In this document: piece after piece, positions 32,962 to 57,751 of the stretch | Layout: every line of letters starts with the position of its first letter | How positions within the stretch are numbered: the stretch's first letter is position 1 | NCBI RefSeq assembly: GCF_002150785.1 | Contig: NZ_MTAZ01000005.1 | Span: 62,001 to 126,000 of the forward strand | From: Arenibacter amylolyticus | GTDB taxonomy: Bacteria > Bacteroidota > Bacteroidia > Flavobacteriales > Flavobacteriaceae | Direction of reading: 5' to 3' | Length of the DNA: 64,000 nt | The notes under the pieces: generated by a model | What the model was told of the DNA's origin: nothing | Seen by the model: the letters and a program-made list of their open reading frames with translations, nothing else | Database searches by the model: none | Program-made: the position numbers and the translations under genes

Positions 32962-34527
32962 TTAATTCAACTCCTGAATCACTTCCCTTAAGGCTTTATA
33001 AATTATGGGAGCTGTTTCTGGACCCAGGGAATTGCTTTCCCCATAAGTGGCCCTTTCGTCATTATAGAGATAGGGTTTCTTTACGTCCCACTGGCTTTTT
33101 GGAATAATATATCCAATCTCGTCATTGGAGAGTCCTAGGTAAAATTGGTAGGGGGTCTTAATAAAATCTTTTAAAGGGGGAATTTCTTGAGGTTGAATAT
33201 CAAAATCCCTACCTGCCGGCGCTTCAATGCCTCCATATACAATCTCTGGATATATTTCCCCGGGTATACTTAGCCAGAGGCTGGGACCTATTCTTATGGC
33301 CCCAACTTCGGTTCTAGTTTTAAAGTATTTAGGCATTCCCATATCTATAAGGCCAATAGCGCTGGCAAGTTTAAAGGTGTTATTCTCCACAGGAACTGAC
33401 AGGGTCTTTGCCCTTATTGATAGGTAGCTCTCCGTTATGGTGTCTCCCTTTTGTTTTAGTGCGGCTAAGGAGAGGAGGGCTATTTGATCTCCCAATGCCT
33501 TTGTCTTTTTAAAGGTGGGTTCCAAATATTCTTCCCCAGTATAGGGATCAGGAATAGGTAGGGAAGGGTGCGGCGCCATGAGTCCGCCTAGGGCACCCGA
33601 GAAGTATATGGCCAATCCGCCCAAACCTTCCTCCATTAATTGACCCTTATGATACACCCCATTCTCTAAGGCTTCTCTTATAAAATGGGGGAAATCTGAG
33701 CTTATCAAGAGGTTCTGGGACCAAAGTGTTTCTGGATGGTTGGCCCAATTTATCAGGGTGCCCATGGTGGTATCGTTTTCGGCATCTAACACTTGCATTA
33801 AGTGAATTCCCGTGGCCTTTACAATGGGTTCTCTAGTGTCCTTCATAAACTTTCCATCGGCCCCGGAAAGGTCTTCCGCAAATACCAACTTGGCCCTGCG
33901 AAGTTTGCCCACTGCTTCGGTGATGGCAGCCACGGTCTGGGTTTTAACGTATTCCAACATTTCAGGATTTACCCCGGATTTGAAAATGTTTTCTCCCCAA
34001 ATCCCAATTAGGTCGTTGCTTTCATGGGTATGGGTAGATGCGATTAAGGTGTAGTCTATTCCTAATTCCTTGGGAAGACGCTTTCGAATATCCACCACAT
34101 CGCCGTGTAAAAAGCCTATGGCATCCAAGGAAACTAGGGCAATTCTTGTATTGTTATCCTCAATAACTAGTACCCTAGACCAAACGTCGTCATGGATCCC
34201 CTGTGCGGGTTTGGCATTGCTCATACCTGCTATCCAATAAGCATCAAATTTTCCATTATTATTGTTGTCATTATAGGTGTCCCCCTCCTTCTTATGGTAT
34301 TTGTTATTGCCATTGGCATCGTTCCACGTATCTACAATTGTAGGGGTTATGGGTCTTTTTGCAAATCCTGCCTTAAGGCGTTGGGGGGTGCTGTTTGCTA
34401 TTTTTATATCTATGGAATAATCCGGGTGACGGTCCCGCCAATTATAAAGCGAAATAGAAGCTGCAATAACTAGGAGTAGAAGTAGTGCTATCCCCAAAGA
34501 TTTCAATATTCTTTTCAAAACCTTCAT
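32962..34527 (-). CDS. Neutral/alkaline ceramidase N-domain-like protein, with Ca-binding-type loops
   Basis: A 521-residue envelope protein with an N-terminal anchor helix (residues 10-28). It has the ceramidase zinc motifs STHTHESND (His166/168) and INWANHPETLW, matching the two histidine sites of neutral ceramidase. The serine loop (SGPF-type) that carries the nucleophile is not seen; the region reads YFSGALGGLMAPHP. Length is below the roughly 650 or more of true ceramidases, and no C-terminal immunoglobulin-like domain is evident. Two EF-hand/dockerin-like Asp/Asn-rich loops lie at residues 70-81 and 87-95. A metal-dependent hydrolase acting on an amide or ester is plausible. It is last in an operon with its paralogue, 12 bp apart. 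Confidence 0.85.
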   Translation of the reverse strand: MKVLKRILKSLGIALLLLLVIAASISLYNWRDRHPDYSIDIKIANSTPQRLKAGFAKRPITPTIVDTWNDANGNNKYHKKEGDTYNDNNNNGKFDAYWIAGMSNAKPAQGIHDDVWSRVLVIEDNNTRIALVSLDAIGFLHGDVVDIRKRLPKELGIDYTLIASTHTHESNDLIGIWGENIFKSGVNPEMLEYVKTQTVAAITEAVGKLRRAKLVFAEDLSGADGKFMKDTREPIVKATGIHLMQVLDAENDTTMGTLINWANHPETLWSQNLLISSDFPHFIREALENGVYHKGQLMEEGLGGLAIYFSGALGGLMAPHPSLPIPDPYTGEEYLEPTFKKTKALGDQIALLSLAALKQKGDTITESYLSIRAKTLSVPVENNTFKLASAIGLIDMGMPKYFKTRTEVGAIRIGPSLWLSIPGEIYPEIVYGGIEAPAGRDFDIQPQEIPPLKDFIKTPYQFYLGLSNDEIGYIIPKSQWDVKKPYLYNDERATYGESNSLGPETAPIIYKALREVIQELN

Positions 34528-34539
34528 GATACTGCGTTT

Positions 34540-35943
34540 TTATAATTTGGAATGGATAAGGGTATTGGCCATTTTAAAATTGACTTCCATTAGATAGTCT
34601 CCCATGCTGGGACCGTACCATCCCATGAGGCCCGATTCGTAGGAATCGTAATAGTAGTATTTTGCCGGTGTGATATACCCTAAATACTGTCCGTTAAAAC
34701 TGCTCAATACCATGTGATGACCGGCTACTTCCATAGCATTTATAAGATCTAAACCGTATTCCCCGCTTAATTCGTAGGGTAGCGTAATCCAAACAAGGTG
34801 GTTTAATTGTAGTCCCTGCAGGGGGATAGTCGCTATGTTGGGCATTAATTTTCTCCCTAGAAAGGGGGCTAATCGCAAGCGATCCGTAATCTTAAAGAAT
34901 TGTAGTTTCGGAATTTCCAGTTCTGTGCTGATAGCGGATAGGTGCACCTGAGAATCGTATTCCAATCTACGGAGGACTACTTGTGCGGAATCGGCCAGGG
35001 TTTCCCCAATAAATCTTGCTTTCTCAAACTTTTCACCTTCCCCTTTGTTAGAGTGGCTACCTACGGTACCAGCAAAGAAAAGCGCCAGATCTGTTCCTTT
35101 CGCTTCCAAATGCCGCTGAAAATACCCGGGATAATCCCCGCTAAAAGCATCGTTAATGGGACTTATCACCGTGGCATGGGCGGCATAGATCCCAATAGTT
35201 GCCTTTTTTCCAGTGTCCTGTATAAAGGATAGCACCTCTAACCTATCATTTACTCGCCCCGGTTCCCCGATGATCCTATTTCTCACTAAATTGGGAACCT
35301 TAATGTAGCCCGATGAGAATTTGCTGGGCTCCTTGTCTGCAAGAGCCTTTTTTATGAGTAATACCAATTTATCACTCAACCAGCTTACCATTTCTGGGTT
35401 GTATTCTCCTCCAAAACTTTCCCCAACGTAACTGGGAAGGCAGTTCCCTATGCTGGAATGCGTATGCGTTGCCCCAAAAAATAATTGATCCCGAGTAATT
35501 ACATTCTTTAATTTTTCCGAAACTGCCATGACTATGGGCTCTGGCATAAGGAGTAGGTCGGCACTGATTAACACCACCCCTTTCTGTCCCACCTCTAAAG
35601 CAATGGCCTTTGCATAAATAGAGTCGTGCACCCCCTTGGCAATTTTTCCGTCCCCATATCCGGCCAGTTTTATTCCGCTGAATATACCTTGTTTCGGATT
35701 GGGGTTTCCCTCCACTATTGTGGGGGTAATATTCACTTTTGCAAATCCGGCAAAAAGGGGGCCTTGGGCATCGGTCCTGTTCTTTGCCGCCAATTCTAGC
35801 TTACCAATGGTGTTCTGGTAATAGGTTGTTTCAAAATAGGACGTGGAATCTACGGTAGTAGTGGCGAAATAGAAACTCAGCCCCAGTAATAACAGTAGGC
35901 CCACCAATAGTTTTAGCAATACCTTTCCCCATTTTCTCATCAA
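34540..35943 (-). CDS. Neutral/alkaline ceramidase N-domain-like protein (second paralogue)
   Basis: A 467-residue protein with one N-terminal membrane anchor (residues 8-26). Zinc-site motifs ATHTHSSIGN and YAAHATVISP are present, and SGDYPGYFQRHLE follows as in neutral ceramidases. The catalytic-serine loop is again replaced (FFAGTVGSHSNKG). It has no Asp-rich loop like its neighbour. Sequence similarity to the 521-residue protein is limited to the core, so the two may act on different bonds of one substrate. The stop lies 12 bp before the next start; the start is 3 bp after the propeller gene. Confidence 0.85.
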   Translation of the reverse strand: MMRKWGKVLLKLLVGLLLLLGLSFYFATTTVDSTSYFETTYYQNTIGKLELAAKNRTDAQGPLFAGFAKVNITPTIVEGNPNPKQGIFSGIKLAGYGDGKIAKGVHDSIYAKAIALEVGQKGVVLISADLLLMPEPIVMAVSEKLKNVITRDQLFFGATHTHSSIGNCLPSYVGESFGGEYNPEMVSWLSDKLVLLIKKALADKEPSKFSSGYIKVPNLVRNRIIGEPGRVNDRLEVLSFIQDTGKKATIGIYAAHATVISPINDAFSGDYPGYFQRHLEAKGTDLALFFAGTVGSHSNKGEGEKFEKARFIGETLADSAQVVLRRLEYDSQVHLSAISTELEIPKLQFFKITDRLRLAPFLGRKLMPNIATIPLQGLQLNHLVWITLPYELSGEYGLDLINAMEVAGHHMVLSSFNGQYLGYITPAKYYYYDSYESGLMGWYGPSMGDYLMEVNFKMANTLIHSKL

Positions 35944-35946
35944 GCG

Positions 35947-37086
35947 TTATTTCAGTTTACTGGGATCTAATTTTATATACTTTACCGTCTTCCTGTTCCA
36001 GGTATACACAATATGAACCATACCATCTTCGGCTTGTATCATGGTAGGGTAGGAGTACTCTTCGCCTTCCTTATCAGTGTTTTTGCGTAGTGGTTCCAAA
36101 TCCAGTACCCGGTCCCAGTGCTTACCATCGGTAGATAGGGCTAAACTTAAAGGAACCCGGTCTCCCCAGTTTTTTCCAGTGGGGTTGTACACTATCAATT
36201 GACGACCATCCTGTAGGCTTACCCCATCTATGCCCGAGTTTGGATTGGGTAATTCCGTGGCCGTCATTTTGTCCCAAGTCTTACCGTAGTCCTCAGACCA
36301 GTTTTGGGAAACAACACTATTTTTAGTGCGACTCAATAATTGTAGTTTTCCATCACCGTAATTTAATACTGTGGGTTGTATGGCTCCAAACTCTTCCCCA
36401 TCATTCAAGGATTCCGTACGGTTCCAAGTTTTGCCGCCATCACTACTATGTTCCAAATGTATCTGCCATCCATCGGTATCACTTTCCGTACTGGAAGGGG
36501 ATATTATAGTTCCATTGGCCAGTTGTATAGGCTGATTTTTAATAGGTCCCAACACGCCATCTGGGAGTTTAACGGGGGTAGACCATGTTTGTCCATTGTC
36601 CGTTGAGGTCATATAGAGTCCCCACCAAGATTTTGGGTCTGGACCAACCTTGTAAAACAGCATCAAGGGTTGTCCTTTAGGCTTAAACAAAACCGGATTC
36701 CAGCAAGGAAATCTTGAGCCATCGGGTTGCACCCCGTTGGCCACTTCTACGGGAGAAGACCAAGATTGGCCTGTTTTTCGCGATACCCAAATCCCAACAT
36801 CGTCGTTTTTTTCCTTGGTGCCTCCAAACCAAGAGGCAACCACAGTACCATTGCTTATCGCTACGGTAGAGGCGTGGCATTCTGGAGTAAGTGCCTTCTC
36901 TAATTCGTAAACAAACTCCTGCTCCACAATAGCAGGATGCTCCAAGGGAATAACTTGCGGTAATTTTTCCATTTTTTCTTTACAAGATACAAGGAGTAGG
37001 GTAGAAAAAAGGAATAGGGATCCTAAAAAAGAGGGCTTTTTAAATTGAAGGAAGCTCACAAAAGCGTGGTAATTTTTTTGAGTCAT
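35947..37086 (-). CDS. Sialidase-fold (BNR repeat) lipoprotein
   Basis: A 379-residue lipoprotein (signal ends LLLVSC, Cys35) with a six-bladed sialidase-type propeller (BNR_2, PF13088). Asp-box motifs are clear: STDNGQTW, SSDGGKTW, SEDYGKTW and STDGKHW. The N-terminal block HASTVAISNGTVVASWFGG is shared with the paralogue at 47469. The FRIP arginine motif of classic GH33 sialidases is not visible. It may cleave an acidic sugar linkage by another route, for example like propeller lyases or rhamnosidases. It lies in an operon between the BASS symporter and the ceramidase-like genes. Confidence 0.85.
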   Translation of the reverse strand: MTQKNYHAFVSFLQFKKPSFLGSLFLFSTLLLVSCKEKMEKLPQVIPLEHPAIVEQEFVYELEKALTPECHASTVAISNGTVVASWFGGTKEKNDDVGIWVSRKTGQSWSSPVEVANGVQPDGSRFPCWNPVLFKPKGQPLMLFYKVGPDPKSWWGLYMTSTDNGQTWSTPVKLPDGVLGPIKNQPIQLANGTIISPSSTESDTDGWQIHLEHSSDGGKTWNRTESLNDGEEFGAIQPTVLNYGDGKLQLLSRTKNSVVSQNWSEDYGKTWDKMTATELPNPNSGIDGVSLQDGRQLIVYNPTGKNWGDRVPLSLALSTDGKHWDRVLDLEPLRKNTDKEGEEYSYPTMIQAEDGMVHIVYTWNRKTVKYIKLDPSKLK

Positions 37087-37097
37087 TTTCGTAAAGG

Positions 37098-37982
37098 TTA
37101 GGTTTGTTTATCCAAACTTGGTTGGTCTTTTACCCCAAGAGGTTTTCTTAAGAATATAATAACCGTAGCGGTTACAAACATTAGTAGTCCGTAGATAGCC
37201 GGGACTATGGAGTATTCGGCATTATTCAGTGCTATGGTGGCGAGCGTTATCGCTAGGGTTCCGTTTTGTATCCCAGTCTCTATGGAGATACTAATCGCCT
37301 GCGGCCGTGATAATTTAAAGGCCAATGCAAAAAGAAAGCCTAGGGTCATGGTGCTGATATTTAGTAGAATGGCGGGTAGCCCCGCTTCTTTTAAGTAGCT
37401 CATAAAAACATCTTTAATACTTAAGGTGACGCCAACAACTACCAATATAAAAATAATGGCCGATGCAATTTTTACGGGTTTTTCCATCTTTTGGGCGAAG
37501 GAGGGAAACTTTCCCTTTACCCACATGCCAATTCCTACGGGGATAATTACGATGACCAATAACTGCAATACCATGGTAAACGCATCTACGGAAACCGCTA
37601 CACTTTGGTTGGCAAATTCCACTAAAGCAAATTGAACAATAAGCGGGATGGTAAGTATGGTGAGCATGCTAGAAACCGCCGTTAGGGACACCGATAGGGC
37701 TAGGTCTCCTTTGGCTAAATAAGACAACATATTGGAAGTGGGGCCGCCTGGACAAGCCGCCAATAACATTACGCCAATGGCTGTAGTAGGGGACAGATTT
37801 AAATAGAGGGTGATGAGGTAGCCTAGCAAAGGCAATAATATAATTTGGCAGCAGAGCCCTATAATCATTGCCTTGGGATATACCAATACTCTTTTAAAAT
37901 CTGAAAGACTTAGGGATAGTCCCATCCCAAACATGATAATAATAAGTGAAATGGCGAGAATAATTCCAGAAGTAGTATTCAT
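37098..37982 (-). CDS. BASS-family sodium symporter
   Basis: A 294-residue membrane protein with about nine to ten helices of the bile acid:sodium symporter family (SBF, PF01758). Family stretches include the N-terminal MFGMGLSLSLSDFKRV and the crossover-region motif LLAACPGGPTSNMLSYLAKGD, followed by QNGTLAITLATIAL. It probably takes up an organic anion with Na+. Its position at the head of the propeller and ceramidase-like operon suggests import of a product of those enzymes. An 11-bp gap separates it from the propeller gene. Confidence 0.93.
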   Translation of the reverse strand: MNTTSGIILAISLIIIMFGMGLSLSLSDFKRVLVYPKAMIIGLCCQIILLPLLGYLITLYLNLSPTTAIGVMLLAACPGGPTSNMLSYLAKGDLALSVSLTAVSSMLTILTIPLIVQFALVEFANQSVAVSVDAFTMVLQLLVIVIIPVGIGMWVKGKFPSFAQKMEKPVKIASAIIFILVVVGVTLSIKDVFMSYLKEAGLPAILLNISTMTLGFLFALAFKLSRPQAISISIETGIQNGTLAITLATIALNNAEYSIVPAIYGLLMFVTATVIIFLRKPLGVKDQPSLDKQT

Positions 37983-38214
37983 AACTAATTGTTACAATCT
38001 TAATTATTGATTATTATTTTCATGATGGCATAACATCCACTTTTCCAAATAAACCTTTTTAAAGGTAGAATTGCTTCGTAAATATTGTGCGAAATGCATC
38101 AAATATTGACTGCCTTTTAGTCGTGCTATAGGCTTTACTTCAATTTACATCAGGGTCTAGGATAGTCGATATATGGCAATACAATTCCCCTTAAGCTTAT
38201 GGTCTATCTCAATA

Positions 38215-39240
38215 CTATAGCTCTTTAAACCGTTTCATTATTTCCTTCCAGTTCGTGAAAATCACCTCTTCTTCTTCCAGGAAATTTATGAGGTCTGGGT
38301 CTCCAAACATTTTGGCCTCCCACACCCTTTCTTGCCAGGAATTGGTAATACCCTTTAGATTTTCCGTTTCCACCGAAGGATGAAAGATAATTTCTGTAAG
38401 GCCAGGTTTCAAGCCCGATATCAGCGCCTTAAAGTTTTCCACTTTTTCTTGGTAAGACTTGGCCTTAGGTGCACTGGTGAAAAAGTCTAGTTTAGGAAGG
38501 CTGTAGTCTGCAATCATTTCCACAACAACCTCGTCTAAAGGATAGCCTTGCTCCCTAAAGATGGCTAATACCTCTGGGTTAGAGATATCAATTATATTGG
38601 CTGGTATGCCATATTCCTCTGCCACCTTAATAAAGACTTTCACATAACTGGGATCTGCATATAGGGTACCCATGTGGGTGTCTATATGATCTGGGGTATG
38701 TCCCCAAGCCAAGGATTGTTCTATTTGAGCGCGAATCTCTTTTTCCACTTCCTCAGCGGTCGCATGTTGAACTACTTGGGCTACGCTACGCCATAATTTG
38801 GAATGGGGATCCAATAAGCCTGGGACTGCTTCGGGATTGGTAATAGGACCCCAACGGTGCTCCTTCCATTCGCTGGTAAGGGTAAGGTGCAGCCCAATAT
38901 CCATTTCTGGGTTTTCTATAGCCCAGTTTATAAACTCCTCGGCATTAGGACAGGGGACCATTACTGCGGCCGATTGTATTTGGCCACTGTTTAGTTGAGC
39001 TTTAGCTGCAATATTGGCTTCTGGGCACATACCAATATCATCGGCATGTAGCATTATGACTTTCTTTCCTGCTGGCCAACCTAATTTTTCTGCCCAATTT
39101 TTGTTGGTTTCCAACTGTTGTTCCTCGGTCTCCAAGGTTTCGGAGACTGCTTGTTTGGTGTTTTTCTTTTCTCCGCATCCCAGTAAAAATGCCCAAAAGA
39201 ATAGGAGTAGTAGTACCCTAGGTAAACGTAAGTTTTTCAT
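38215..39240 (-). CDS. YdjC/ChbG-type carbohydrate deacetylase lipoprotein
   Basis: A 341-residue lipoprotein (signal ends FLLGC, Cys22) with a YdjC-like domain (PF04794). Metal-site motifs are HADDIGMCPEAN, GLHLTLTSEW and HIDTHMG, and a later EIIFHPSVE. ChbG relatives remove an N-acetyl group from chitobiose-type sugars. Its surface or periplasmic location and the neighbouring genes suggest deacylation of an amino sugar in the locus substrate. AACCAACCAACC lies just upstream of the start (minus strand, 39258-39247), and ATTGGTGTT lies at 39262-39270. Confidence 0.92.
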   Translation of the reverse strand: MKNLRLPRVLLLLFFWAFLLGCGEKKNTKQAVSETLETEEQQLETNKNWAEKLGWPAGKKVIMLHADDIGMCPEANIAAKAQLNSGQIQSAAVMVPCPNAEEFINWAIENPEMDIGLHLTLTSEWKEHRWGPITNPEAVPGLLDPHSKLWRSVAQVVQHATAEEVEKEIRAQIEQSLAWGHTPDHIDTHMGTLYADPSYVKVFIKVAEEYGIPANIIDISNPEVLAIFREQGYPLDEVVVEMIADYSLPKLDFFTSAPKAKSYQEKVENFKALISGLKPGLTEIIFHPSVETENLKGITNSWQERVWEAKMFGDPDLINFLEEEEVIFTNWKEIMKRFKEL

Positions 39241-39342: not shown

Positions 39343-40719
39343 CTATAGAACTTCATTGGTATCCGCTACATACATCCTAGTACTTTTGGTATATAAATCC
39401 CCGTGGAGATCTTTATACTCTAAATCCATATAAAACGCCTTATATCCTTTCTCAGGAAATTGGATAAGGTGATAAATATTCTTAGGATCCGTTATATCAA
39501 TTTTTAAAGGCGTCCATTCCTCATCCCTAAAATCCCGATCGTCGGAATCTGCAGACCATAAATAAGCGTTGTGTAAATTTTCTGTTGCAGTGCTTACAGT
39601 TAAGGTTGCCGATTCTTTGCTGGAGGTAATATTATAGGATAATTGGGTTAGCGGTTTATCGTTCAATAGCTTTCCCCAGAAAGCACTTAATGCCCTAAAA
39701 GCTTGTGTCCCGCCCCCTAAATCATGGCCCGCATTGGGAACATAATGAAGGTAGTTTTCACCAGGAATATCATTGATGTAATTTTTAACCGCATCTACAG
39801 GCCAATATTCGTCATTGGTGCCTATAAAGATCAATTTGGGCATGCTCAGTTGATCTTTGTAGGAATAGGGATCTACCATTTGAGTAATGGCATTACCATC
39901 CTCGGAACGTACAGTTTGGGGAATCTCCAATTGTATATAATCGTTAATCTGTTCACTGTACTCCTTCCAAACCACCAGGTGATAATCTAGGCTAACGGGC
40001 ATATTAAGCACATCTATAACCATGGGCGCTATAGCCTGTACCCGCTTGTCATGTGCGCCTGTTAACCAGGTGGTCCATCCTCTTTTGGAAGCACCGGAAA
40101 CGATAAATCTGTTAATGTCCCGTTCTAACTCTGCCTTACTAAATTCCTGCACGGCATCCATAGCGCTTACGGCACTCTTTACCATAGGGAATAGTAGTGG
40201 CCAAGTAAGATCTTTGTCCTTTTTGTAGTTGTGCAGGGTGAAAGAGATTAGTTGATCTTCTACCAAGCCATCGTATAAGGGCTGATTGGGAACTTGTTTT
40301 AAGATGGCAACCATTGCATTATTCTCTTCTGCGATCTTTTTAAAGTTTTGTGTCTTGCTATCCTCCTTGTTAGAAGACCACTTGGGGAGTCCGTCCTTAA
40401 CGCTTCCTCCGGTAACGAATAATAATGCCCCATCATGGTCTACCTTTGATGGTACCAATAAAGTGAGCTGATGGGTCCAAATAAAATCGCGCCATTTTTG
40501 GGATGTGAGTAATAGCTCATATACGGAAGATTCCCCTAACTGGTAGCTGTCACGTAACTCCCAGGAATAATGGGAGTCGTTATTGTGTAAATAGCTTTTT
40601 AATGCAGTTTCCGGAGTTATAGGATCATTTATTACCTTGTTTTCTGCCAGATTTTTTGGATGGTCTTTGCAGGCCATGATGAGGGCCATAAAGAGCAATA
40701 AAAGAAGGTGTTTTTTCAT
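39343..40719 (-). CDS. PhoPQ-activated protein PqaA-like lipoprotein
   Basis: A 458-residue lipoprotein (signal ends ALIMAC, Cys17) of the PhoPQ_related family (PF10142). The alpha/beta-hydrolase-like core has FIVSGASKRGWTTWLTGAHDKRVQAIAP with the presumed nucleophile in SGASKRG, then FIGTNDEYWPVDA and PNAGHDLGGG, which supply Asp and His. No activity is established for the family. It is placed with the other envelope enzymes of the locus, on the same strand as the deacetylase, 102 bp upstream. Confidence 0.9.
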   Translation of the reverse strand: MKKHLLLLLFMALIMACKDHPKNLAENKVINDPITPETALKSYLHNNDSHYSWELRDSYQLGESSVYELLLTSQKWRDFIWTHQLTLLVPSKVDHDGALLFVTGGSVKDGLPKWSSNKEDSKTQNFKKIAEENNAMVAILKQVPNQPLYDGLVEDQLISFTLHNYKKDKDLTWPLLFPMVKSAVSAMDAVQEFSKAELERDINRFIVSGASKRGWTTWLTGAHDKRVQAIAPMVIDVLNMPVSLDYHLVVWKEYSEQINDYIQLEIPQTVRSEDGNAITQMVDPYSYKDQLSMPKLIFIGTNDEYWPVDAVKNYINDIPGENYLHYVPNAGHDLGGGTQAFRALSAFWGKLLNDKPLTQLSYNITSSKESATLTVSTATENLHNAYLWSADSDDRDFRDEEWTPLKIDITDPKNIYHLIQFPEKGYKAFYMDLEYKDLHGDLYTKSTRMYVADTNEVL

Positions 40720-49921: not shown

Positions 49922-51193
49922 ATGAAATCATCTACCTGGAGGATCCCGATGCTTATTGTAGCCATGGCCTTGGCAACCGCTTGGGCTATTCGCGGACAGT
50001 TTGGGCACGAACAGGGGGCCGCATGGGCCGGGGCTATAGGAGGTATTGCTTTGGTCTTGGTCTCCCAACGCCAGGATTGGTACCGGAAAATGATGGTGGT
50101 TGCCCTGGCCTCTGCCGTTGGCTGGGGCGTAGGCGGGATGATCAGCTATGGGATGATAGTAGGCTATGGAAAAGCGGACAATTTTATCAATGCCTTTTAT
50201 GGCCTAGGGATGTTGTTCCTGATAGGAGGCCTCTTTGGGCTACTTGGGGGTGGCTTGGTAGGACTTAGTTTAGATTCCACTCGGGAAAATAGGGTGAAAT
50301 GGGGCGCCTTAATGGCAGAGATGGCAGCAGGCGGACTCATAGGGTATTATTTATTGATTGTACAGATAGGAATAAGAATGACCCCTCCAAGGTCCGAGGC
50401 ATGGGCGGTTTGTCTTGGAGCTGGCTTAGCCATGTTATGGCATATGGCTAGGGAAAAAAGAAATTCGCCCATCAGGGTGGCATGCTTCTCCATGTTAGGA
50501 GGGGGTATAGGTTTCGGATTCGGTAATTTTCTGCAGATCCTAGGGATATCCGCAGCGCTATCCTTTAATATGTGGAATGTGATGGAATATAGCATCGGAT
50601 TTTTTGGAGGTCTAGGAATGGCCTATGGGGTCTTTAGCTCTCCTTGGCCTAAAGATATACCAGGGCCAAAGAAGTGGGAGAACTGGAGTTCATTTGGAAT
50701 ACTTGCCCTTTTTCTACCATTGATTGTTTATAGGGAGTCCCTTAGTTATCACCACCTAACTAGGCGATTACGGGATTTGCCAAATGTAGAGGAGCTGGCA
50801 ACTACTAGTACCTGGGTGGCTGCACTGGTGCTTCTTTTAATGATATTTTTATTGGGTAGGCAATTAATAAAGGAGCTGATAGGCCATAAACAGGTATTCC
50901 GGACGTTTTTTATTTTACTGATTCCGTATGCGGGAGTTAGCTTTTTGGTAAAAGGGCTTTTAGGAGGGGTGGTAGAAGTCACTCACTACTTATACCTCCT
51001 TAATATTTTGATGCTGTTTCTACTACTAGGCCTTAAGCAACCATCTATTCAATTTGGAAAACTAAAAGTTATGCCAATGGATAGGTGGATTTACTATTTG
51101 CTGGGAGGTTTAAGTTTTATGGCGCTTTTGGCATTTATAGCTATTCATGTACATGGTGATTTGGGAGGACATAATAGATTTCCATTAAACTAA
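49922..51193 (+). CDS. Multi-pass membrane protein of unknown function
   Basis: A 423-residue protein with about ten to eleven predicted helices. The N-terminal part is rich in glycine (GAAWAGAIGG, GWGVGGMISYGM, FLIGGLFGLLGGGLVGL), giving a tightly packed bundle. Charged or aromatic positions inside helices (AIRGQFGHEQG, MWHMAREKR) could bind a ligand or cofactor. I recognise no transporter family. The locus context and the neighbouring gene suggest a paired inner-membrane complex, as inference. It lies 44 bp after the phosphatase gene. Confidence 0.8.
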   Translation: MKSSTWRIPMLIVAMALATAWAIRGQFGHEQGAAWAGAIGGIALVLVSQRQDWYRKMMVVALASAVGWGVGGMISYGMIVGYGKADNFINAFYGLGMLFLIGGLFGLLGGGLVGLSLDSTRENRVKWGALMAEMAAGGLIGYYLLIVQIGIRMTPPRSEAWAVCLGAGLAMLWHMAREKRNSPIRVACFSMLGGGIGFGFGNFLQILGISAALSFNMWNVMEYSIGFFGGLGMAYGVFSSPWPKDIPGPKKWENWSSFGILALFLPLIVYRESLSYHHLTRRLRDLPNVEELATTSTWVAALVLLLMIFLLGRQLIKELIGHKQVFRTFFILLIPYAGVSFLVKGLLGGVVEVTHYLYLLNILMLFLLLGLKQPSIQFGKLKVMPMDRWIYYLLGGLSFMALLAFIAIHVHGDLGGHNRFPLN

Positions 51194-51197
51194 GGAT

Positions 51198-51836
51198 ATG
51201 ACGACTACAAAGGAAAGTAATGGCTTTTATTTTATGATTCTTGTGGTGTTTATTGCCATTGGATATGCCGTTCTAAGATATCACCTATTGGGGGAGGTTC
51301 CCTGGAAAGATTTTCCAATTTTTATTTTGAACAAAGGTGTATCGCTGGCTGGGATAACCCTTTTGTCATTATGTGTTTCCCTTGGCCCCTTATCTCGCAT
51401 GGGAATCTCCATATTAGCTACAAGATCTGCCAAGAAACTGATGGGCATTTCAGGGCTACTCCTGACCATTGCGCATGTTTTGCTGAGTATGGTAATTTTA
51501 AATCCGCGCTATTTTGAGCTGTTTTTTGTGGAGGATGGAAGCTTATCGGCACGGGGATCCCTTAGTTTGATGGCTGGGGTGGTTAGCTTAATAATGCTGG
51601 GGGTATACCATCAATGTTTTAAAAATGGGGTGGTGGGAAAGGAAAAATTGGTTAAGTTTTTAACCTCCAATAAATTTCTTCTAGGACTACTACTGCTGTT
51701 TGGGGCTCATCTTTTTTTTGTGGGCTATCACAATTGGTTGGTTCCCGCCAATTGGATAGGCGGACTACCACCCATTACGTTGGTTTCCTTTGTAATGGTG
51801 TTTTTGGCCATGGGAATTAGTCTTCTTGGGCGCTGA
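51198..51836 (+). CDS. Membrane protein, possibly ferric-reductase-like (YedZ/MsrQ-type)
   Basis: A 212-residue protein with about five to six helices. A His in LLTIAHVLLSMVIL and another in LLFGAHLFFVGYHNW are placed as in b-type heme-binding helices of the ferric-reductase-like transmembrane domain. The match is only by pattern. If right, it passes electrons across the membrane, perhaps to its neighbour. The ATG is 4 bp after the previous stop, so the two are translationally linked. It ends the plus-strand arm before araC. Confidence 0.6.
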   Translation: MTTTKESNGFYFMILVVFIAIGYAVLRYHLLGEVPWKDFPIFILNKGVSLAGITLLSLCVSLGPLSRMGISILATRSAKKLMGISGLLLTIAHVLLSMVILNPRYFELFFVEDGSLSARGSLSLMAGVVSLIMLGVYHQCFKNGVVGKEKLVKFLTSNKFLLGLLLLFGAHLFFVGYHNWLVPANWIGGLPPITLVSFVMVFLAMGISLLGR

Positions 51837-51874: not shown

Positions 51875-52723
51875 CTATCTAAATGTCTTCCGATATTCAC
51901 TAGGGGTCTTCCCCATAATGAATTTAAAGTAGTGGTTAAAGTTGGCGAGATTGTTATACCCGCTTTCAAAACAAATTTGAGTAATCTGTTTGTCCGTTTC
52001 TGCCAGTAATTTAGCGGCTATGCCCACCCTCACGCTCTTTACATACTCCATAAAGGTTTGGCCTGTCTTCTTCTTAAAATACCTGCAGAAGCTGCTGGGC
52101 GCCATGTTTAGTACGGCAGAGGCCGACTCTAACTTTACCCCTTCCTGGATGTTTTGGAAAACATACTCATAAACCTTGTTTATCTTATCAAGGTTTTTGG
52201 AGAAAACGGCGGAGTTGTTAATGGGATTTGATAGGTTTTCCCTTTCCTCTACTTGGATGAGGTAATGAAATACCCTTAATAGTTGAATGTAATACTCCAA
52301 ACCAGTGAGCTGGGTCATCTCCTCCAAAATAGCCGGTATATGGGTGTCATTTCCCAGTTTAAATCGTAGTCCGGTGTTGGATTGTCTTAGTAGCTCAACC
52401 ACCTTCTCCAATTCGGGCATTTTAAAAAAATCCGAATTGATGATGTCTTCAGAGAAATGGGTGACAATACAAAAGGGATCTTTACCTTTTTCGGCATCCA
52501 AGGCTTCCCAACAATGAGGTAGATTGGGACCTAAAAGTACCAGATCGTCTTTTTCAAAACCGGAGATGTTATCTCCCACAATTCTTCGTCCCGACCCTGA
52601 TGTGATAAAGTTTAATTCGAAATTTCTATGGGAATGAATTCTGGCATTGGATGCCAATGGTAGTTTTCTAGAAATAAATGAATGCTTGGTGGGGACATAA
52701 ATTTTTTCAAAAATAAACTCCAT
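51875..52723 (-). CDS. AraC-family transcriptional regulator
   Basis: A 282-residue regulator with a cupin-type N-terminal ligand domain (residues 1-150; HSHRNFELNFITSGSGRRIVGD) and a C-terminal double HTH (190-282) ending in the signature ITQICFESGYNNLANFNHYFKFIMGKTPSEYRK. It is divergent from the aldolase/symporter genes, and an 8-bp inverted pair (ACACCAAT at 52745-52752, ATTGGTGT at 52816-52823) lies between them. It is the most likely controller of the locus, sensing a sugar product. Confidence 0.94.
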   Translation of the reverse strand: MEFIFEKIYVPTKHSFISRKLPLASNARIHSHRNFELNFITSGSGRRIVGDNISGFEKDDLVLLGPNLPHCWEALDAEKGKDPFCIVTHFSEDIINSDFFKMPELEKVVELLRQSNTGLRFKLGNDTHIPAILEEMTQLTGLEYYIQLLRVFHYLIQVEERENLSNPINNSAVFSKNLDKINKVYEYVFQNIQEGVKLESASAVLNMAPSSFCRYFKKKTGQTFMEYVKSVRVGIAAKLLAETDKQITQICFESGYNNLANFNHYFKFIMGKTPSEYRKTFR

Positions 52724-52744: not shown

Positions 52745-52823
52745 ACACCAATATAATTAATTATTTTAAAATAAAGGTTAAGATATAATGCAATTAAAAC
52801 AATATAGTGGTGGCGATTGGTGT
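52745..52823. promoter_or_regulatory. Inverted AraC-type sites between araC and aldolase genes
   Basis: ACACCAAT (52745-52752) and ATTGGTGT (52816-52823) are exact reverse complements, 63 bp apart. The 9-mer ATTGGTGTT (52816-52824) also occurs upstream of the deacetylase (39262-39270). Confidence 0.4.
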
Positions 52824-52952
52824 TAAATTGAATTTAATTTGTGTAGGGTCTATGGTAATAGAAGGAGAATTGTTAAAGAATTAGGTTGCTTGACCAAACT
52901 TCTTGCCGTTAATCGATTTTAGCCTAAAATAAAGACTTTTAAACATGAGCAA

Positions 52953-53876
52953 ATGAATTTACCAATAAAAGGAATTATTCCACCGATGATTACGCCGCTT
53001 TTGGAGAATTTGTCATTAGATCTTGTCGGATTAGAAAATTTGGTGCATCATTTATTGGAAGGTGGTGTACATGGTATTTTTATCTTGGGGACTTCTGGTG
53101 AGGGACCTAGCCTGAGTTACGCAACACGGAAAAAAATGATTTCCGAGACCTGTAGGTTGGTTAACGGCAAGGTGCCGCTGTTGGTTGGAATCACAGATAC
53201 CTCCTTTGAGGAAGCCATGGAATTGGCCAAACACGCCAAAAGGGAAGGAGCCAATGCCTTGGTGGTGGCCTCCCCATATTACCTTCCTATTTCTGAGAGG
53301 GAAATGTTAGAGTATTTGGAAAATTTAGCTCCTAAATTGCCATTACCTTTCCTTTTGTACAATATGCCAAGTTGTACCAAGCTAAGCGTATCAATGAAAA
53401 TAGTTAAAAAAGCGAGAGCGTTGGGAGCTATAGGCATCAAGGATAGCTCTGGTGATCTTTCGTTTTTGTATATGCTGATCGAAGCGTTTAAGAACGACCC
53501 CCAATTCGCTATCATTACGGGGACGGAATTATTTCTGCCAGAAACAATCATGAATGGCGGACATGGGGCCGTGGCAGGGGGTGCCAATTTTTTTCCAGGG
53601 CTTTTTGTGGCCCTCTATGAAGCTATGCTTAAGAAAGATTTTGATAAGGCAAAAGAACTACGCCAAGAGGTAATTAAGATTCATCATACCATTTATGAGG
53701 TTGGAAAATATTCCTCACGGCACATAAAAGGGACTAAAGCAGCCTTAGCAGCCATGAATATTTGCAAGGATTATGTAGCAGAACCCCTGCACAGATTTAA
53801 TGAGGAACAACGTAATAAAATTAAAGAGTATATTGTAGCGTTTAAATATACCAACCACTACAAACCTGCATTATGA
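52953..53876 (+). CDS. NanA/DapA-family class I aldolase
   Basis: A 307-residue (beta/alpha)8 lyase of the dihydrodipicolinate synthase/N-acetylneuraminate lyase family. Motifs are GTSGEGPSLS (residues 46-55), the catalytic Tyr136 in LLYNMPS and the Schiff-base Lys163 in GIKDSSGDL. The last resembles the KQTSGDL of NanA more than the KEATGNL of DapA, but this does not fix the substrate. It probably cleaves a 2-keto-3-deoxy acid such as a sialic or ulosonic acid to pyruvate. A minute upstream frame (ATG AGC AAA TGA, 52945-52956) overlaps its start. Its stop overlaps the next start by 4 bp. Confidence 0.88.
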   Translation: MNLPIKGIIPPMITPLLENLSLDLVGLENLVHHLLEGGVHGIFILGTSGEGPSLSYATRKKMISETCRLVNGKVPLLVGITDTSFEEAMELAKHAKREGANALVVASPYYLPISEREMLEYLENLAPKLPLPFLLYNMPSCTKLSVSMKIVKKARALGAIGIKDSSGDLSFLYMLIEAFKNDPQFAIITGTELFLPETIMNGGHGAVAGGANFFPGLFVALYEAMLKKDFDKAKELRQEVIKIHHTIYEVGKYSSRHIKGTKAALAAMNICKDYVAEPLHRFNEEQRNKIKEYIVAFKYTNHYKPAL

Positions 53877-55363
53877 ATTACCAATTAGGAACTGTGGACC
53901 TGACCATAATAGTGCTTTATGGACTGGTCTTGGTCCTCATGGGAATCTACTTTTTTAAGAGGAGCAAAACTTCGGAACAGTTTATGGTAGCCAGTAGGGG
54001 GATACCCGCCTGGGCCGCAGGTATTGCGGTTATGAGTACCTATACTAGTAGCATTTCCTATATTGCCGTTCCTGGAAAAGCCTTTGACGATAATTGGCAC
54101 CCCCTTGTATTTGCCATCTGCGCCATTCCAGTAGCCTGGTTTGTAACTTCCTATGTAATTCCCCATTACCGAAAAAATAATATCATCTCCGTTTATAACT
54201 ATCTCGAAGAAAAAATTGGGGGCTGGGGTAGAATTTATGCTGCTTTCTCCTTTCTCCTCTTTATGGTAGGGCGGGTAGCTGTAATTCTATACTTGTCTTC
54301 CCTGTTGCTTACCTCCTTTGTGAGCTTAGATATAGAAATGGTTATTGTATGTATTGGTGTCGTGACCATTATCTACACCTTAATGGGAGGAATGGAAGCG
54401 GTCATATGGACGGATGTGATGCAATCCATAATAATGATCGGGGGAATCCTTTTTGTAGCTGTTATACTTAGTATGGAGATTTTTTCCCAGCCCGATTATT
54501 TGGTGCAAAAGGCTTTTGATAACAATAAATTTAGCCTTGGGGATACAGACTTTTCACTGCGCGATAGAACATTGTGGGTAATGATTATTTACGGAATATC
54601 GGAAAATGTTAGGAATCTTATTGCCGATCAAAATTACACCCAGAAATATAGCTCGGTGGGCACCACCCAGGAAGCGCGTAAATCGGTTTGGATTGCCATG
54701 CTCATCTACCTGCCATTAACCCTTATCTTTTTATATATAGGAACGGCCTTATTTGCTTACTACGGAGCAGAAGCAAATGTTTTAAATGAAACCATTACCA
54801 AAGGCGATGAGGTCTTCCCATATTTTATCGCTACAGAACTCCCGGTAGGCATTAAAGGCCTTATGATTGCAGCCATCATGGCGGCTTCTATGAGTACGGT
54901 AGATTCTGCCCTCAACTCTTCGGCTACGGTGCTGTATATCGATTTTTATAAAAAGTACCTCAATCCCAAAGGGTCCGAACGGTCCAGCCTAAATTTTCTT
55001 AGGATTACCACCATCATTTGGGGAGTGTTGGGAGTGGGATTTGCCCTGCTTATGATTAATGCCAAAAGCGCATTGGATGTCTGGTGGCAAATTTCAGGGA
55101 TTTTTGGGGGTGGTATCCTCGGATTGTTTCTCTTGGCCCTATTTAACGTAGGTATCAGTCGGGCACAAGGGATTCTATCCGTACTGTTTAGTATTCTAAT
55201 TATTGTTTGGGGTACCTTCTTTAGAGACCTGCCCAAAGGTTACAGCTGGTTAGAGTGTACCATGGATCCAATAATCATTGGTGCGGCTTCTACGGCAGGA
55301 TTAATTGCTATGGCCTTGGTCTTTATGCTGTATAATAAAAGCAAAACTAAAGAGTACGCATAA
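53873..55363 (+). CDS. Sodium:solute symporter (SSS family)
   Basis: A 496-residue transporter with about 13 helices of the LeuT-like SSS fold. The N-terminal GTVDLTIIVLYGLVLVLMG is typical, and YTSSISYIAVPGKAFDDNW is the helix-1 substrate/sodium region. AAIMAASMSTVDSALNSSATVLYIDFY near residue 330-355 is the family signature. Relatives include sialic acid (SiaT), sugar and amino acid importers. Overlap with the aldolase gene suggests it imports that enzyme's substrate or its precursor. Confidence 0.95.
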   Translation: MNYQLGTVDLTIIVLYGLVLVLMGIYFFKRSKTSEQFMVASRGIPAWAAGIAVMSTYTSSISYIAVPGKAFDDNWHPLVFAICAIPVAWFVTSYVIPHYRKNNIISVYNYLEEKIGGWGRIYAAFSFLLFMVGRVAVILYLSSLLLTSFVSLDIEMVIVCIGVVTIIYTLMGGMEAVIWTDVMQSIIMIGGILFVAVILSMEIFSQPDYLVQKAFDNNKFSLGDTDFSLRDRTLWVMIIYGISENVRNLIADQNYTQKYSSVGTTQEARKSVWIAMLIYLPLTLIFLYIGTALFAYYGAEANVLNETITKGDEVFPYFIATELPVGIKGLMIAAIMAASMSTVDSALNSSATVLYIDFYKKYLNPKGSERSSLNFLRITTIIWGVLGVGFALLMINAKSALDVWWQISGIFGGGILGLFLLALFNVGISRAQGILSVLFSILIIVWGTFFRDLPKGYSWLECTMDPIIIGAASTAGLIAMALVFMLYNKSKTKEYA

Positions 55364-55365
55364 TT

Positions 55366-56811
55366 TTGGAACTGGGGAAACAGGCATGGATTAAGATAGG
55401 GAGGGTGCTTCTGCCCCCATTACTTCTTTTAATGCTACTGCTCTTCTTCCCATTTTCTATAACTATCATAGATGCCCTAAGCTTACAACCCCTAGCAGAT
55501 TACAGTATTCAGATACATTTCTGGAGAACGGTCTTTGAACCCTTTTTGGGTCCTTTGCTTTATTTTAAAAGATCTATAAACCCACTGCAGGAAGTGCCAA
55601 TGGCAATCCTGTGGGGGCTTGTGATCTATCTGCTCCATGGGTTTTGGAAGTACAAAAAAATGGAGGATAAATCTGGAGGGGGAAAATACTTTTTAAGGAA
55701 ACTAAGCAATTTACCTTTGATTTTGGGAATGGGGTTTGCTTACTTTCTTTTAGTCCTTTTTATTCCATTGCCAACCAATACCATCGTCAATAATTCCGAG
55801 CACGATATTTTGGTGACCACCCATGCACATTCCGAATTCAGCCATGACGGATTAATCTCTCCAATACAATTGTGGGAATGGCATAAAAGAAATGGATTTG
55901 ACGCCTTGTTTATTACCGAACATGCCCATCATCATAAAACCCTAGAGTTTTCAAGACAACAGCGCAATAGTAAATTTCCTATGGATCCATTGGTTATGGT
56001 AGGGCAGGAGTATTCTGGCTCTAACCATATGAGTCTTTTGGGGTTAAACGGAAGCTTTGTGACCAAAGGAAAAACAGATGCAGAAATTGTGGACTTAACC
56101 CACAGGCATGGGGGTGCAGTAATCGTTAACCATTGGTTTGATGGGAAAGGAAAGGAAAAAGAATTCTATACGGCCATGGGAGTAGATGGATTTGAAATTG
56201 AAAATGTAGGCAAGAAATTATACTACAATCGGTTAGTTTTCAAGAATCTTAAAGAACACTGTGAGGAAAACGGACTTATCATGGTGGGCGGCTTAGACTA
56301 TCACGGATATGGAAGGGGATGTTCCCTTTGGAATGCTTTCACCATTCCCAATTGGCACAAAATGAACCCAAAAGCAAAAGAAAGTGCCATACTACAGATT
56401 TTACGGGATAGGGATCAGTCTAAGCTTAAGGTACTTATGTACAGGGATAGGCCTTTTTACGAGGGGATCCCTCCTTTGATTAGTCCACCTATTAACGCCC
56501 TATATTATTTTAGAACGCTCAATGGCTATCAAGTGGCATCTTGGATAGTTTGGTGGGCTATTTTTCAGTTGTTTCTTGTTGTAGGAAGGAGTTGGCTAAT
56601 GTATTGGGAAGATGCTTTGCCATTAGGGGGAGGCCTAAGCGCAACGTTTATGCTGATCTTGGGCGTAATTTATTATTTAAAGGACCAGACGCTGCAGGGG
56701 TATAGTAGTTTGTATGCTGAATACGGTACCCTCTTGTTGACAATTGGGGGCATATATATCCTATACGCGGGCTACTTAATCCGTCGTCGTTTTTTTAGAG
56801 TGAAAATATAG
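55366..56811 (+). CDS. Membrane-anchored PHP-domain phosphoesterase-like protein
   Basis: A 481-residue protein. Three N-terminal hydrophobic segments (residues about 12-35, 75-92 and 115-140) precede a PHP domain (about 145-370), and two or three C-terminal helices follow. Metal-binding motifs are DILVTTHAHSEFSHDG, ALFITEHAHHHKTLE, VMVGQEYSG and VIVNHWFDG, then GGLDYHGYG. PHP enzymes hydrolyse phosphoesters; here the domain probably faces the periplasm. The start is TTG at 55366, 2 bp after the symporter stop. With the phosphatase and glycerophosphodiesterase nearby it suggests a phosphorylated substrate. Confidence 0.85.
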   Translation: MELGKQAWIKIGRVLLPPLLLLMLLLFFPFSITIIDALSLQPLADYSIQIHFWRTVFEPFLGPLLYFKRSINPLQEVPMAILWGLVIYLLHGFWKYKKMEDKSGGGKYFLRKLSNLPLILGMGFAYFLLVLFIPLPTNTIVNNSEHDILVTTHAHSEFSHDGLISPIQLWEWHKRNGFDALFITEHAHHHKTLEFSRQQRNSKFPMDPLVMVGQEYSGSNHMSLLGLNGSFVTKGKTDAEIVDLTHRHGGAVIVNHWFDGKGKEKEFYTAMGVDGFEIENVGKKLYYNRLVFKNLKEHCEENGLIMVGGLDYHGYGRGCSLWNAFTIPNWHKMNPKAKESAILQILRDRDQSKLKVLMYRDRPFYEGIPPLISPPINALYYFRTLNGYQVASWIVWWAIFQLFLVVGRSWLMYWEDALPLGGGLSATFMLILGVIYYLKDQTLQGYSSLYAEYGTLLLTIGGIYILYAGYLIRRRFFRVKI

Positions 56812-56875
56812 TCTGAGGTAAAAGCCTGCTGTTCATTTTTATATCCAGCCTTCTACGGGTGGCCATTTACCATCT

Positions 56876-57751
56876 TTAACGGTGAAGCTTACGCGCTCTT
56901 AAATAATTTAAAAGAGCTTCCGGCAAATCTGTCTGTATTACATTTACATATTTTTTGCTCAAAAGGGCATCAAACCCAGCATCTTTCTCTAACCGCTCCA
57001 TGCTATCATATTTTCCTAAGGCATTGATCCATACCCTTGTTCCCGAGTCTATAATCTTGCGCATCTTACGGTCCTTGTAAAAGCTTTCATCAATATGGAT
57101 AATATCTATCAGGTCCATTTTTTGAATCGCCCTCACTTCTCTTCTAGAATACGCCCTAGGCATTATTCGTATTTCACTATCCATTTCTTGCAGCCTGGGG
57201 GTTTCCTTATAATCGTACAGAAAAAATAATATTTGGTTCTCCATCCCGAATTCTTGAATAAGGGAATAGGCTTTTTCAACAGCGGCCATATCCTCCAATT
57301 TAAAGTCGATGTCTAAAAGGACTTTTCCTTTAGTCAATTGCAGTACTTCTTTAAAGGTGGGAATACGCTCTGTAGTGATACTGTCTTTAAATAATAGGCG
57401 TAGGTCTTTTAGCTGGTCTAAGCTAAAATCGGACACATTTCCACTACCATTGGTGGTTCTATCCAAAGTGCGATCGTGCATTATCAGCAACACTCCATCC
57501 TTACTTTGTCTAATATCTAATTCCACGATATCTACTCCTATACGGATACTTTCCTTAATGGCAGCCAAAGAATTTTCTGGGTAATAATCATTGGTGGCTC
57601 TATGGGCAGCAACTAATATTTGTTCGGGATTGTTTTTAAAATCGATTAAAATACGATCCAAGTTGGACTCCTGTGCTGCTAATCCTACATAGAGAAATAA
57701 CAATAGCACTAAGAGAAGCTTTTTTGGGTGTGGTGATAGGTGGTTGTTCAT
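56876..57751 (-). CDS. Exported glycerophosphodiester phosphodiesterase
   Basis: A 291-residue secreted GDPD enzyme (signal MNNHLSPHPKKLLLVLLLFLYVGLAA). Metal and catalytic residues are in place: His50-Arg51 and Glu60 in AAHRATNDYYPENS, Glu77 and Asp79 in VELDIR, and His92 in MHDRTLDRTTNG. It hydrolyses glycerophosphodiesters to glycerol 3-phosphate and an alcohol. It is on the opposite strand to the symporter operon, 64 bp after its end, and may belong to the locus or be independent. Confidence 0.93.
   Translation of the reverse strand: MNNHLSPHPKKLLLVLLLFLYVGLAAQESNLDRILIDFKNNPEQILVAAHRATNDYYPENSLAAIKESIRIGVDIVELDIRQSKDGVLLIMHDRTLDRTTNGSGNVSDFSLDQLKDLRLLFKDSITTERIPTFKEVLQLTKGKVLLDIDFKLEDMAAVEKAYSLIQEFGMENQILFFLYDYKETPRLQEMDSEIRIMPRAYSRREVRAIQKMDLIDIIHIDESFYKDRKMRKIIDSGTRVWINALGKYDSMERLEKDAGFDALLSKKYVNVIQTDLPEALLNYLRARKLHR

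Follow-up and report, generated by a model that had tools for sequence, protein, structure and literature searches.

A stretch of 64,000 nucleotides from Arenibacter amylolyticus (contig NZ_MTAZ01000005.1, positions 62,001 to 126,000), hereafter called the window, carries a SusCD-type utilisation system that is co-conserved in relatives and contains no ordinary glycoside hydrolase (GH). The tandem SusC/SusD pair was confirmed by TIGR04056 and SusD-like_2, both above cut-off. Among the 20 proteins encoded within 32962-60175 that were scanned with Pfam, no match to a GH or polysaccharide lyase family was found, in agreement with the initial annotation, which had described a utilisation locus of this kind. 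A minus-strand arm (pqaA, ydjC, bass, bnrA, cerB, and cerA) diverges from a plus-strand arm encoding a PKD protein, SusC, SusD, BnrB, a phosphatase, and two membrane proteins. Beyond the plus arm lie araC on the minus strand and then, on the plus strand, the genes for an aldolase, a solute:sodium symporter (SSS), and a PHP-type phosphoesterase. Judging from Pfam and the open reading frames (ORFs), every family named in the initial annotation is encoded where it had been placed, cerA falling just under its cut-off, while the PKD lipoprotein (41275-42225) and the membrane proteins (49922-51193 and 51198-51836) were missing from its list. The genes, together with three copies of an operator that is described below, are as follows.

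32962..34527, minus strand: cerA, short Ceramidase_alk-like hydrolase with an N-terminal hydrophobic segment (Pfam 30.4 bits, just below the cut-off of 32.1)
34540..35943, minus strand: cerB, ceramidase-like hydrolase with an N-terminal hydrophobic segment (Ceramidase_alk 54.3 bits)
35947..37086, minus strand: bnrA, predicted sialidase-fold lipoprotein with an altered catalytic set (BNR_2 296 bits)
37098..37982, minus strand: bass, sodium symporter of the bile acid:sodium symporter (BASS) family (SBF 134 bits)
38081..38110, minus strand: operator copy 1, upstream of bass-bnrA-cerB-cerA (exact GKYAANATWNNAYNNNNNNNNNRYAANATW match; profile score 11.2 only)
38215..39240, minus strand: ydjC, YdjC-family carbohydrate deacetylase-like lipoprotein (YdjC 185 bits)
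39343..40719, minus strand: pqaA, PqaA-like alpha/beta hydrolase lipoprotein (PhoPQ_related 354 bits)
41007..41036, plus strand: operator copy 2, between the divergently transcribed pqaA and PKD-SusCD genes, in their promoter region (strict pattern and profile)
41275..42225, plus strand: PKD-domain lipoprotein, probable surface glycan-binding protein (PKD_4 52 bits; lipobox followed by CSSDDSDR)
42282..45683, plus strand: susC, SusC-type TonB-dependent transporter (TIGR04056 601 bits, cut-off 368)
45695..47356, plus strand: susD, SusD-type lipoprotein (SusD-like_2 257 bits, cut-off 27)
47469..48686, plus strand: bnrB, second putative sialidase-fold protein, without the RIP arginine (BNR_2 184 bits)
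48744..49877, plus strand: calcineurin/purple-acid-type phosphatase (Metallophos 56 bits; weak purple-acid N-domain)
49922..51193, plus strand: membrane protein of 423 aa, family not recognised (no Pfam match over cut-off)
51198..51836, plus strand: small membrane protein, family not recognised (no Pfam match over cut-off; 41% homologue in genome G129)
51875..52723, minus strand: araC, AraC-type regulator, probable operator binder (HTH_18 82 bits)
52777..52806, plus strand: operator copy 3, in the araC/aldolase interval (strict pattern and profile)
52953..53876, plus strand: DHDPS-family aldolase, proposed to act on a Kdo-type 2-keto-3-deoxy sugar acid (DHDPS 178 bits)
53873..55363, plus strand: SSS-family sodium symporter, proposed sugar-acid importer (SSF 161 bits)
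55366..56811, plus strand: membrane-anchored PHP/CehA-like phosphoesterase (PHP 27.6 bits, cut-off 26.4; CehA_McbA 38.3 of 80 bits)
56876-57751: glycerophosphodiesterase (GDPD; Pfam GDPD), outside the conserved block and the regulon

Conservation of the block

In a sample of 199 genomes of the family, the aldolase clade (at least 43% identity) is present in 14, the window genome included. We compared 40 kb around the aldolase gene from 8 of the 13 other genomes, picked for their closest aldolases (G129, G018, G184, G080, G011, G135, G189, and G172, each of another genus), plus four further stretches, and counted a gene as part of the block at 50% identity or more to the window protein (45% or more for PHP). 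By this measure bnrA, ydjC, pqaA, susC, susD, araC, and the PKD, aldolase, and SSS genes occur in all eight relatives' blocks, the SusCD part of G129 lying apart from the rest on the same contig, and the AraC regulator is 75-79% identical throughout. The gene of the 423-aa membrane protein (49922-51193) was found in seven of the eight, cerA and cerB orthologues in six each, the PHP gene in five, bass in four, and bnrB in one. The phosphatase gene occurs in none of these blocks, yet 63-65% orthologues adjoin operator sites in loci L103, L097, and L122 and in G129; both the phosphatase and the PHP genes are part of the set in relatives. The block is a unit, conserved to a degree more than chance would give. 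The initial annotation had made co-conservation of the gene set a check on its reading; the divergent block does recur in these eight genomes of other genera and most genes are conserved with it, the exceptions being bnrB (1/8), the phosphatase gene (0/8), and the GDPD gene.

As a candidate member of the locus, the GDPD gene was rejected: no ORF of at least 50% identity lies in any of the eight relatives' blocks, the sole trace being a stretch of 119 residues with 50% identity that flanks the G080 block, and no strict-pattern operator copy precedes it in the 64-kb window. Upstream of it, 57827-58498 encodes an ankyrin-repeat protein with a lipobox, and 58652-60175, just beyond the locus, encodes a protein of the Pfam family GH3 (auxin-responsive), which is not a glycoside hydrolase.

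Outside these blocks the genes are more scattered. The block is not present around the aldolase of G061, G094, G100, and G159, and the aldolase, SSS, and bnrA genes of G037 are found where short contigs end. Matches to cerB were found in 12 of the 199 family genomes, six of the 11 others being 52-61% identical and the remainder remote. A trio of SSS, aldolase, and bnrA genes is also present in G292 and G462, which belong to another family, and a class-wide search (E <= 1e-75) placed the aldolase clade in 4 of 395 genomes, the window genome among them. We also surveyed named genomes through the best 80 of 243 confirmed loci with 10-kb flanks, where counts are lower bounds because contig ends or the flank limit truncate many loci, and where some genomes recur among those with G handles. 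Within these best 80 the closest loci were from Arenibacter (bnrA 77-85%), followed by Kriegella, Zobellia, Maribacter, Pricia, Ulvibacterium, Pseudozobellia, Euzebyella, and Sediminicola; they contained cerA in 34, cerB in 34, ydjC in 31, pqaA in 30, and the aldolase (at least 50%) in 16 loci. In 10 of the 80 araC adjoins bnrA, and these hold the aldolase in all 10 and the SSS gene in nine.

A shared operator

Alignment of the relatives' araC/aldolase and pqaA/PKD promoter regions revealed a similar element in both. While fixed-seed matching of the araC/aldolase sites was no better than shuffles in most genomes, a profile trained on the relatives' araC/aldolase sites only (profile 1; eight genomes, hand-aligned) ranked the araC/aldolase site of the window first in the 64 kb (24.7) and its pqaA/PKD site second (21.0), the next score being 14.5. 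Conversely, a profile trained on the relatives' pqaA/PKD sites only (profile 2; seven genomes) gave 37.2 for the pqaA/PKD site of the window, 26.9 for the araC/aldolase site, and 13.2 for the next. The refined operator is 30 bp long and consists of a direct repeat of approximately GKTAANATW at a spacing of 22 bp; a direct-repeat layout is usual for AraC-type dimers.

The strict pattern GKYAANATWNNAYNNNNNNNNNRYAANATW has exactly three matches in the 64-kb window, where 0.02 are expected and where 0 of 100 shuffles reached three. One precedes bass, one lies in the pqaA/PKD interval, and one in the araC/aldolase interval. This pattern was derived from 104 sites that include two of the three window sites; the bass site of the window (score 11.2) stands outside these training sites, the relatives' bass promoters inside. 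In 33 loci, mostly of block genomes (596 kb in all), 32 matches were found, nine of them identical to training sites, against a shuffled mean of 0.1; two of the 33 loci are from G037, which gave no match. No match occurred in 28 control loci (497 kb), and at least one occurred in 38 of the best 80 of the 243 named loci. In the scanned loci, profile matches scoring 15 or more numbered 146, some places being counted twice (one genome under two names), and only four of them lie inside ORFs. In relatives, operator sites precede pkd/cerC, aldolase/araC, bnrA, bass, FucI/HAD, ribulokinase/phosphatase, and cl1tor genes, as well as genes of another SusCD set and of GH92/2-hydroxyacid dehydrogenase. 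Judging from these sites, the genes are apparently co-regulated through a common operator, as the reading in the initial annotation would require, and the conserved AraC regulator is the probable protein that binds it.

Within 60 kb of another contig of the window genome (C91) there is one further strict match, upstream of cl1tor (L213:1106-3361, that is, C91:21106-23361). This gene encodes a protein of about 720-790 aa with a beta-propeller-like first half and a helical second half, and the same search found it in all nine block genomes and in none of eight other genomes with G handles. The protein has no Pfam match over cut-off; a profile search returned only sensor-kinase propellers, for the first half, and its AlphaFold model is poor (mean pLDDT 48). 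It is a possible undescribed depolymerase.

Second systems were also seen. In Arenibacter, nine loci (L131-L135 and L137-L140) form a further locus in which a bnrA paralogue (60-63%) accompanies another SusCD pair, and in all nine an operator site lies in the SusC promoter region. In several relatives (L219-L220, L222, L188, and L218), all or part of another SusCD cluster is found close to the block or has the same operator; its genes encode GH92, a GH67N/GH20b-like protein, a GlcNAc-2-epimerase family protein, and an HpcH/HpaI aldolase.

The propellers, the accessory hydrolases, and a separate nan locus

The AlphaFold2 model of bnrA has a pLDDT of 81.2, its top 50 Foldseek matches are mostly sialidases (best E 1.8e-15, query TM 0.60-0.69), and a sialidase fold is predicted from it. 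Residues were compared with the 378-aa sialidase (NanH) of the same genome, which carries FRIP and whose aligned residues we presume to have the usual roles (arginine triad, catalytic Tyr and Glu, and Asp). By hhalign and MAFFT, the position of the RIP arginine is Cys70 in bnrA and Val in bnrB, so that the arginine triad of GH33 is incomplete in both propellers; His71 of bnrA stands directly beside this position, and bnrB likewise has an adjoining His. The position of the catalytic Glu is Gln237 of bnrA by hhalign and a gap by MAFFT, while Asp96, Arg253, Arg310, and Tyr344 are retained. His71 and Gln237 are invariant in nine of nine bnrA orthologues, in which position 70 is Cys or Ala. A search for a solved structure with this active site found none, sequence matches to the PDB being weak; 5mqr, a rhamnogalacturonan II (RG-II) enzyme, was matched over one half only.

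Homologues of bnrA stand among GH78- and GH2-type genes in six genomes (G061, G134, G159, G100, G196, and G127), five of which also have a GH95-type gene; Pfam was run on the G134 set, and the others were assigned by similarity to it. Between GH78- and GH2-type genes in L190 (8830-10779), a bnrA homologue is fused to a xylose-isomerase-like TIM barrel, and the homologues in L189, L191, and L192 are as long as this fusion. Among the six genomes the fusion is seen in G134, three others match it in length, and G196 has the barrel as a separate gene. In L203 (6712-9213; G011 contig C25) an ORF of 833 aa has a bnrA-like domain over part of its length.

The window genome has a sialic-acid (nan) locus of its own on contig C45, with BNR sialidases of 378 aa and 525 aa, an N-acylglucosamine-2-epimerase family gene, a GntR-like regulator (by eye), and a lyase sharing 51% identity with the NanA-like one in G135. 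The window aldolase is 26.6% identical to the same G135 lyase and falls far below the NanA equivalog cut-offs (83.5 of 382 bits for TIGR00683, 111 of 281 bits for NF003164) and also below the DapA cut-off. The strict operator pattern is absent from the 30 kb scanned on the nan contig. NanA-like and SusC-like genes there flank a weaker site (19.5; L225:4550-4582) that resembles the operator but fails the strict pattern, and the nan locus and the window system may be linked. Of 17 genomes, 14 have PF07221, and PF04131 passes its cut-off in one and reaches E <= 0.001 in six; neither therefore discriminates alone. Because a separate nan locus is present and the RIP arginine is missing, sialic acid was rejected as the leading explanation. 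The initial annotation had proposed an acidic, phosphorylated, and acylated glycoconjugate, for example a sialylated one; with several esterase- or amidase-type enzymes encoded here the substrate is probably acidic and substituted, and it may be phosphorylated, while the sialylated part is not supported, given the nan locus, both propellers, and the distance of the aldolase from NanA.

In the cerA-family alignment HTH (166-168), H264, and PGE424 are invariant. The cerB profile matches the neutral ceramidase 2zws (E 1.6e-12), and the cerA profile retrieved no ceramidase among solved structures. By hydropathy both proteins have an N-terminal hydrophobic segment and no lipobox, which suggests a periplasmic role in processing imported fragments. 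Each of the nine block genomes encodes one or more ceramidase-like proteins, counting a third, about 25% similar one. Together with YdjC and PqaA, these enzymes suggest N- or O-acyl groups on the substrate.

A proposed sugar acid and known systems

We have little doubt that this is a conserved, co-regulated utilisation system outside sialic-acid use. Gene content, synteny, the shared operator with the relatives' sites, and the changed active site are read from the sequences themselves; from these we infer the pairing of regulator and operator, the order of the steps below, and every substrate, above all 3-deoxy-D-manno-oct-2-ulosonic acid (Kdo). A Kdo-type 2-keto-3-deoxy sugar acid is our leading candidate, with a probability of about 0.4. 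SusD, the PKD protein, and possibly bnrA, as surface lipoproteins, would bind a substituted acidic oligosaccharide and SusC would import it; YdjC, PqaA, and the ceramidase-like hydrolases would strip acyl or amide substituents and the phosphatases any phosphate. A sialidase-fold protein would then free a sugar acid of the Kdo or 3-deoxy-D-lyxo-heptulosaric acid (Dha) type, which the SSS symporter would carry into the cytoplasm, and the aldolase would split it into pyruvate and an aldose, which for Kdo is D-arabinose. That D-arabinose would in relatives be taken to ribulose 5-phosphate by FucI, in some together with a ribulokinase, and the AraC regulator would switch the locus through the direct-repeat operator.

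The reading draws on which genes travel with the aldolase, and on the point that an aldolase with a D-arabinose isomerase and a ribulokinase suits Kdo catabolism because Kdo splits into pyruvate and D-arabinose. In the family sample the aldolase clade (14/199) and the bnrA family (21/199) co-occur in 13 genomes (Fisher p 3e-14), and the clade and FucI (12/199, one below cut-off) in eight (p 2.5e-8), p values that are indicative only because the genomes are related. In four of four genomes without the aldolase, FucI adjoins FucA and FucK (G014 being the source of both queries); neither was found near FucI in the nine aldolase-bearing genomes G061, G094, G100, G159, G135, G189, G172, G129, and G551 (20-54 kb examined), in eight of which, all except G129, FucI lies near the aldolase. 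The kinase that precedes FucI in G135 clears the ribulokinase cut-off of NF003154 (562.8 of 428) and misses that of TIGR01234 (493 of 583), a 52% homologue of it with an operator site occurs in L103 and L120, and partial ribulokinase matches lie elsewhere in the genomes of G189, G172, G061, G100, G159, G129, and G011. G551 combines GH2, FucI, SSS, aldolase, GH28, esterase, GH95, GH88, and apiosidase genes in a single locus, and G159 has GH127, GH106, GH2, and SASA genes next to those for the aldolase, SSS, and FucI. RG-II holds Kdo and Dha. Kdo in RG-II is also reported in PMC6200933. Aldolases of the NanA type form Kdo from D-arabinose and pyruvate, the reverse reaction (PMC4016182), and green-algal scales and the Tetraselmis theca hold 2-keto sugar acids of the Kdo/Dha type (PMC10762512). 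No ordinary glycoside hydrolase would be required for a polymer in which Kdo and Dha predominate, as in the scales of prasinophytes or Tetraselmis.

Several observations weigh against Kdo. The propellers lack one of the carboxylate-binding triad arginines expected in a GH33-type ulosonidase. FucI was not found in the window genome (G000) nor in G011, G018, G080, and G184, that is, in five of the nine block genomes; the window genome also has neither a ribulokinase-like kinase (E <= 1e-30) nor a Gfo dehydrogenase of the block type (E <= 1e-40), which seven of 14 examined genomes have, and in these absences the fate of the aldose is unexplained there. The FucI of G100 is only a remote homologue (24%), and that of G094 lies in a locus that by eye looks fucose-related. 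L-fucose and L-galactose occur in RG-II and are substrates of FucI, and they could account for its presence. Nor is there an evident role on Kdo for the ceramidase-like proteins or for YdjC (N-deacetylase type). Because the relatives' regulons hold GH92 and a GlcNAc-2-epimerase family gene, with GH31 in their clusters, the glycan may be mixed. Taken as a whole, a dedicated Kdo/Dha regulon for green microalgal scales or thecae, with re-tooled sialidase-fold enzymes, the SSS importer, a new aldolase clade, FucI and ribulokinase in several genera, and cl1tor as depolymerase, is a tentative and rather doubtful proposal.

Another possibility, though also a doubtful one, is that bnrA is a lyase or hydrolase of a uronic-acid glycan (e.g., a rhamno- or glucurono-glycan) and that the aldolase splits a C6 2-keto-3-deoxy acid of the 2-keto-3-deoxygluconate (KDG) or 2-keto-3-deoxy-fuconate type into pyruvate and a C3 aldehyde. 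The many invariant basic or polar residues of bnrA, in which the GH33 set is not kept, are consistent with this, as are the homologues beside GH78, GH95, GH2, GH28, and GH88 and the aldolase's next PDB sequences after 4xky, which are YagE, named a probable 2-keto-3-deoxy-galactonate aldolase; however, the scanned proteins of the window and the relatives include no recognisable uronate isomerase, dehydratase, or KDG kinase, and the tie of the aldolase clade with FucI lacking FucA and FucK is left unexplained. FucI itself could instead serve L-fucose or L-galactose on the substrate, with the aldolase serving an oxidised product. The FucI of G189 does score far above the L-fucose isomerase cut-offs, and that of G094 has fucose-pathway-looking genes around it (by eye), but the absence of FucA and FucK near nine of nine such FucI genes, when both are near four of four fucose-operon FucI genes, and the lack of FucI in the window genome make this explanation unlikely.

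We consider it similarly improbable that the block is a second sialic-acid system in which the aldolase, as a distant NanA, would act on 2-keto-3-deoxy-D-glycero-D-galacto-nononic acid (Kdn) or a modified nonulosonic acid. The sialidase fold with a DHDPS/NanA-type aldolase and SSS does resemble nan loci, and Kdn synthesis genes are abundant in haptophytes and dinoflagellates according to PMC6200933; against it stand the separate locus with its RIP-motif sialidase, the loss of that arginine in bnrA and bnrB, an aldolase far under the NanA cut-offs at 26.6% identity to the G135 lyase, and a nan contig without a strict operator match in 30 kb, even if the weaker 19.5 site lies there. A sialylated or phosphorylated glycolipid degraded by true ceramidases, the example given in the initial annotation, appears very unlikely. 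In its favour are the conserved histidines of the two Ceramidase_alk proteins, the presence of one or more such proteins in every one of the nine block genomes, the phosphoesterases, and GDPD; against it, the ceramidase-like proteins are short, carry a hydrophobic segment at the N-terminus, and lack a lipobox, the cerA profile finds no solved ceramidase, GDPD lies outside block and regulon, and sialic acid is handled by another locus.

If the Kdo-type reading is true, an importer, an aldolase clade, and a sialidase-like family can be assigned to Kdo- or Dha-type sugars, and the operator offers a handle for finding the rest of the regulon. Even with another sugar, this is an apparently co-regulated system with depolymerising chemistry missed by Pfam and with concrete proteins to assay. 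No published locus with this gene set was found by titles and abstract openings, a search that leaves subscription journals mostly uncovered.

Like the nan loci of Bacteroidota, the window system has a sialidase-fold protein, a DHDPS/NanA-family aldolase, and SusCD; it differs in its active-site residues, its aldolase clade, the lack of an epimerase in the block, and the presence of a separate nan locus in the same genome. It shares FucI with the L-fucose operon (FucI-FucK-FucA) in four block genomes, but there FucI comes without FucK and FucA, a ribulokinase is present in some, and the window genome has no FucI. As in RG-II-type pectin loci, homologues of bnrA, the aldolase, SSS, or FucI stand near GH2, GH78, GH95, GH106, GH127, GH28, or apiosidase-like genes, whereas the window block has none of these glycoside hydrolases by Pfam, part of the RG-II set lying around the homologues in G551 and G159. 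Compared with Sus-type polysaccharide utilisation loci of Bacteroidota, the SusC/SusD pair, the probable surface glycan-binding lipoprotein, the regulator, the hydrolases, the symporter, and the divergent operons are alike; here, in contrast, there is no GH or lyase family by Pfam, an aldolase and an SSS symporter belong to the core, and the operator also marks unlinked genes.

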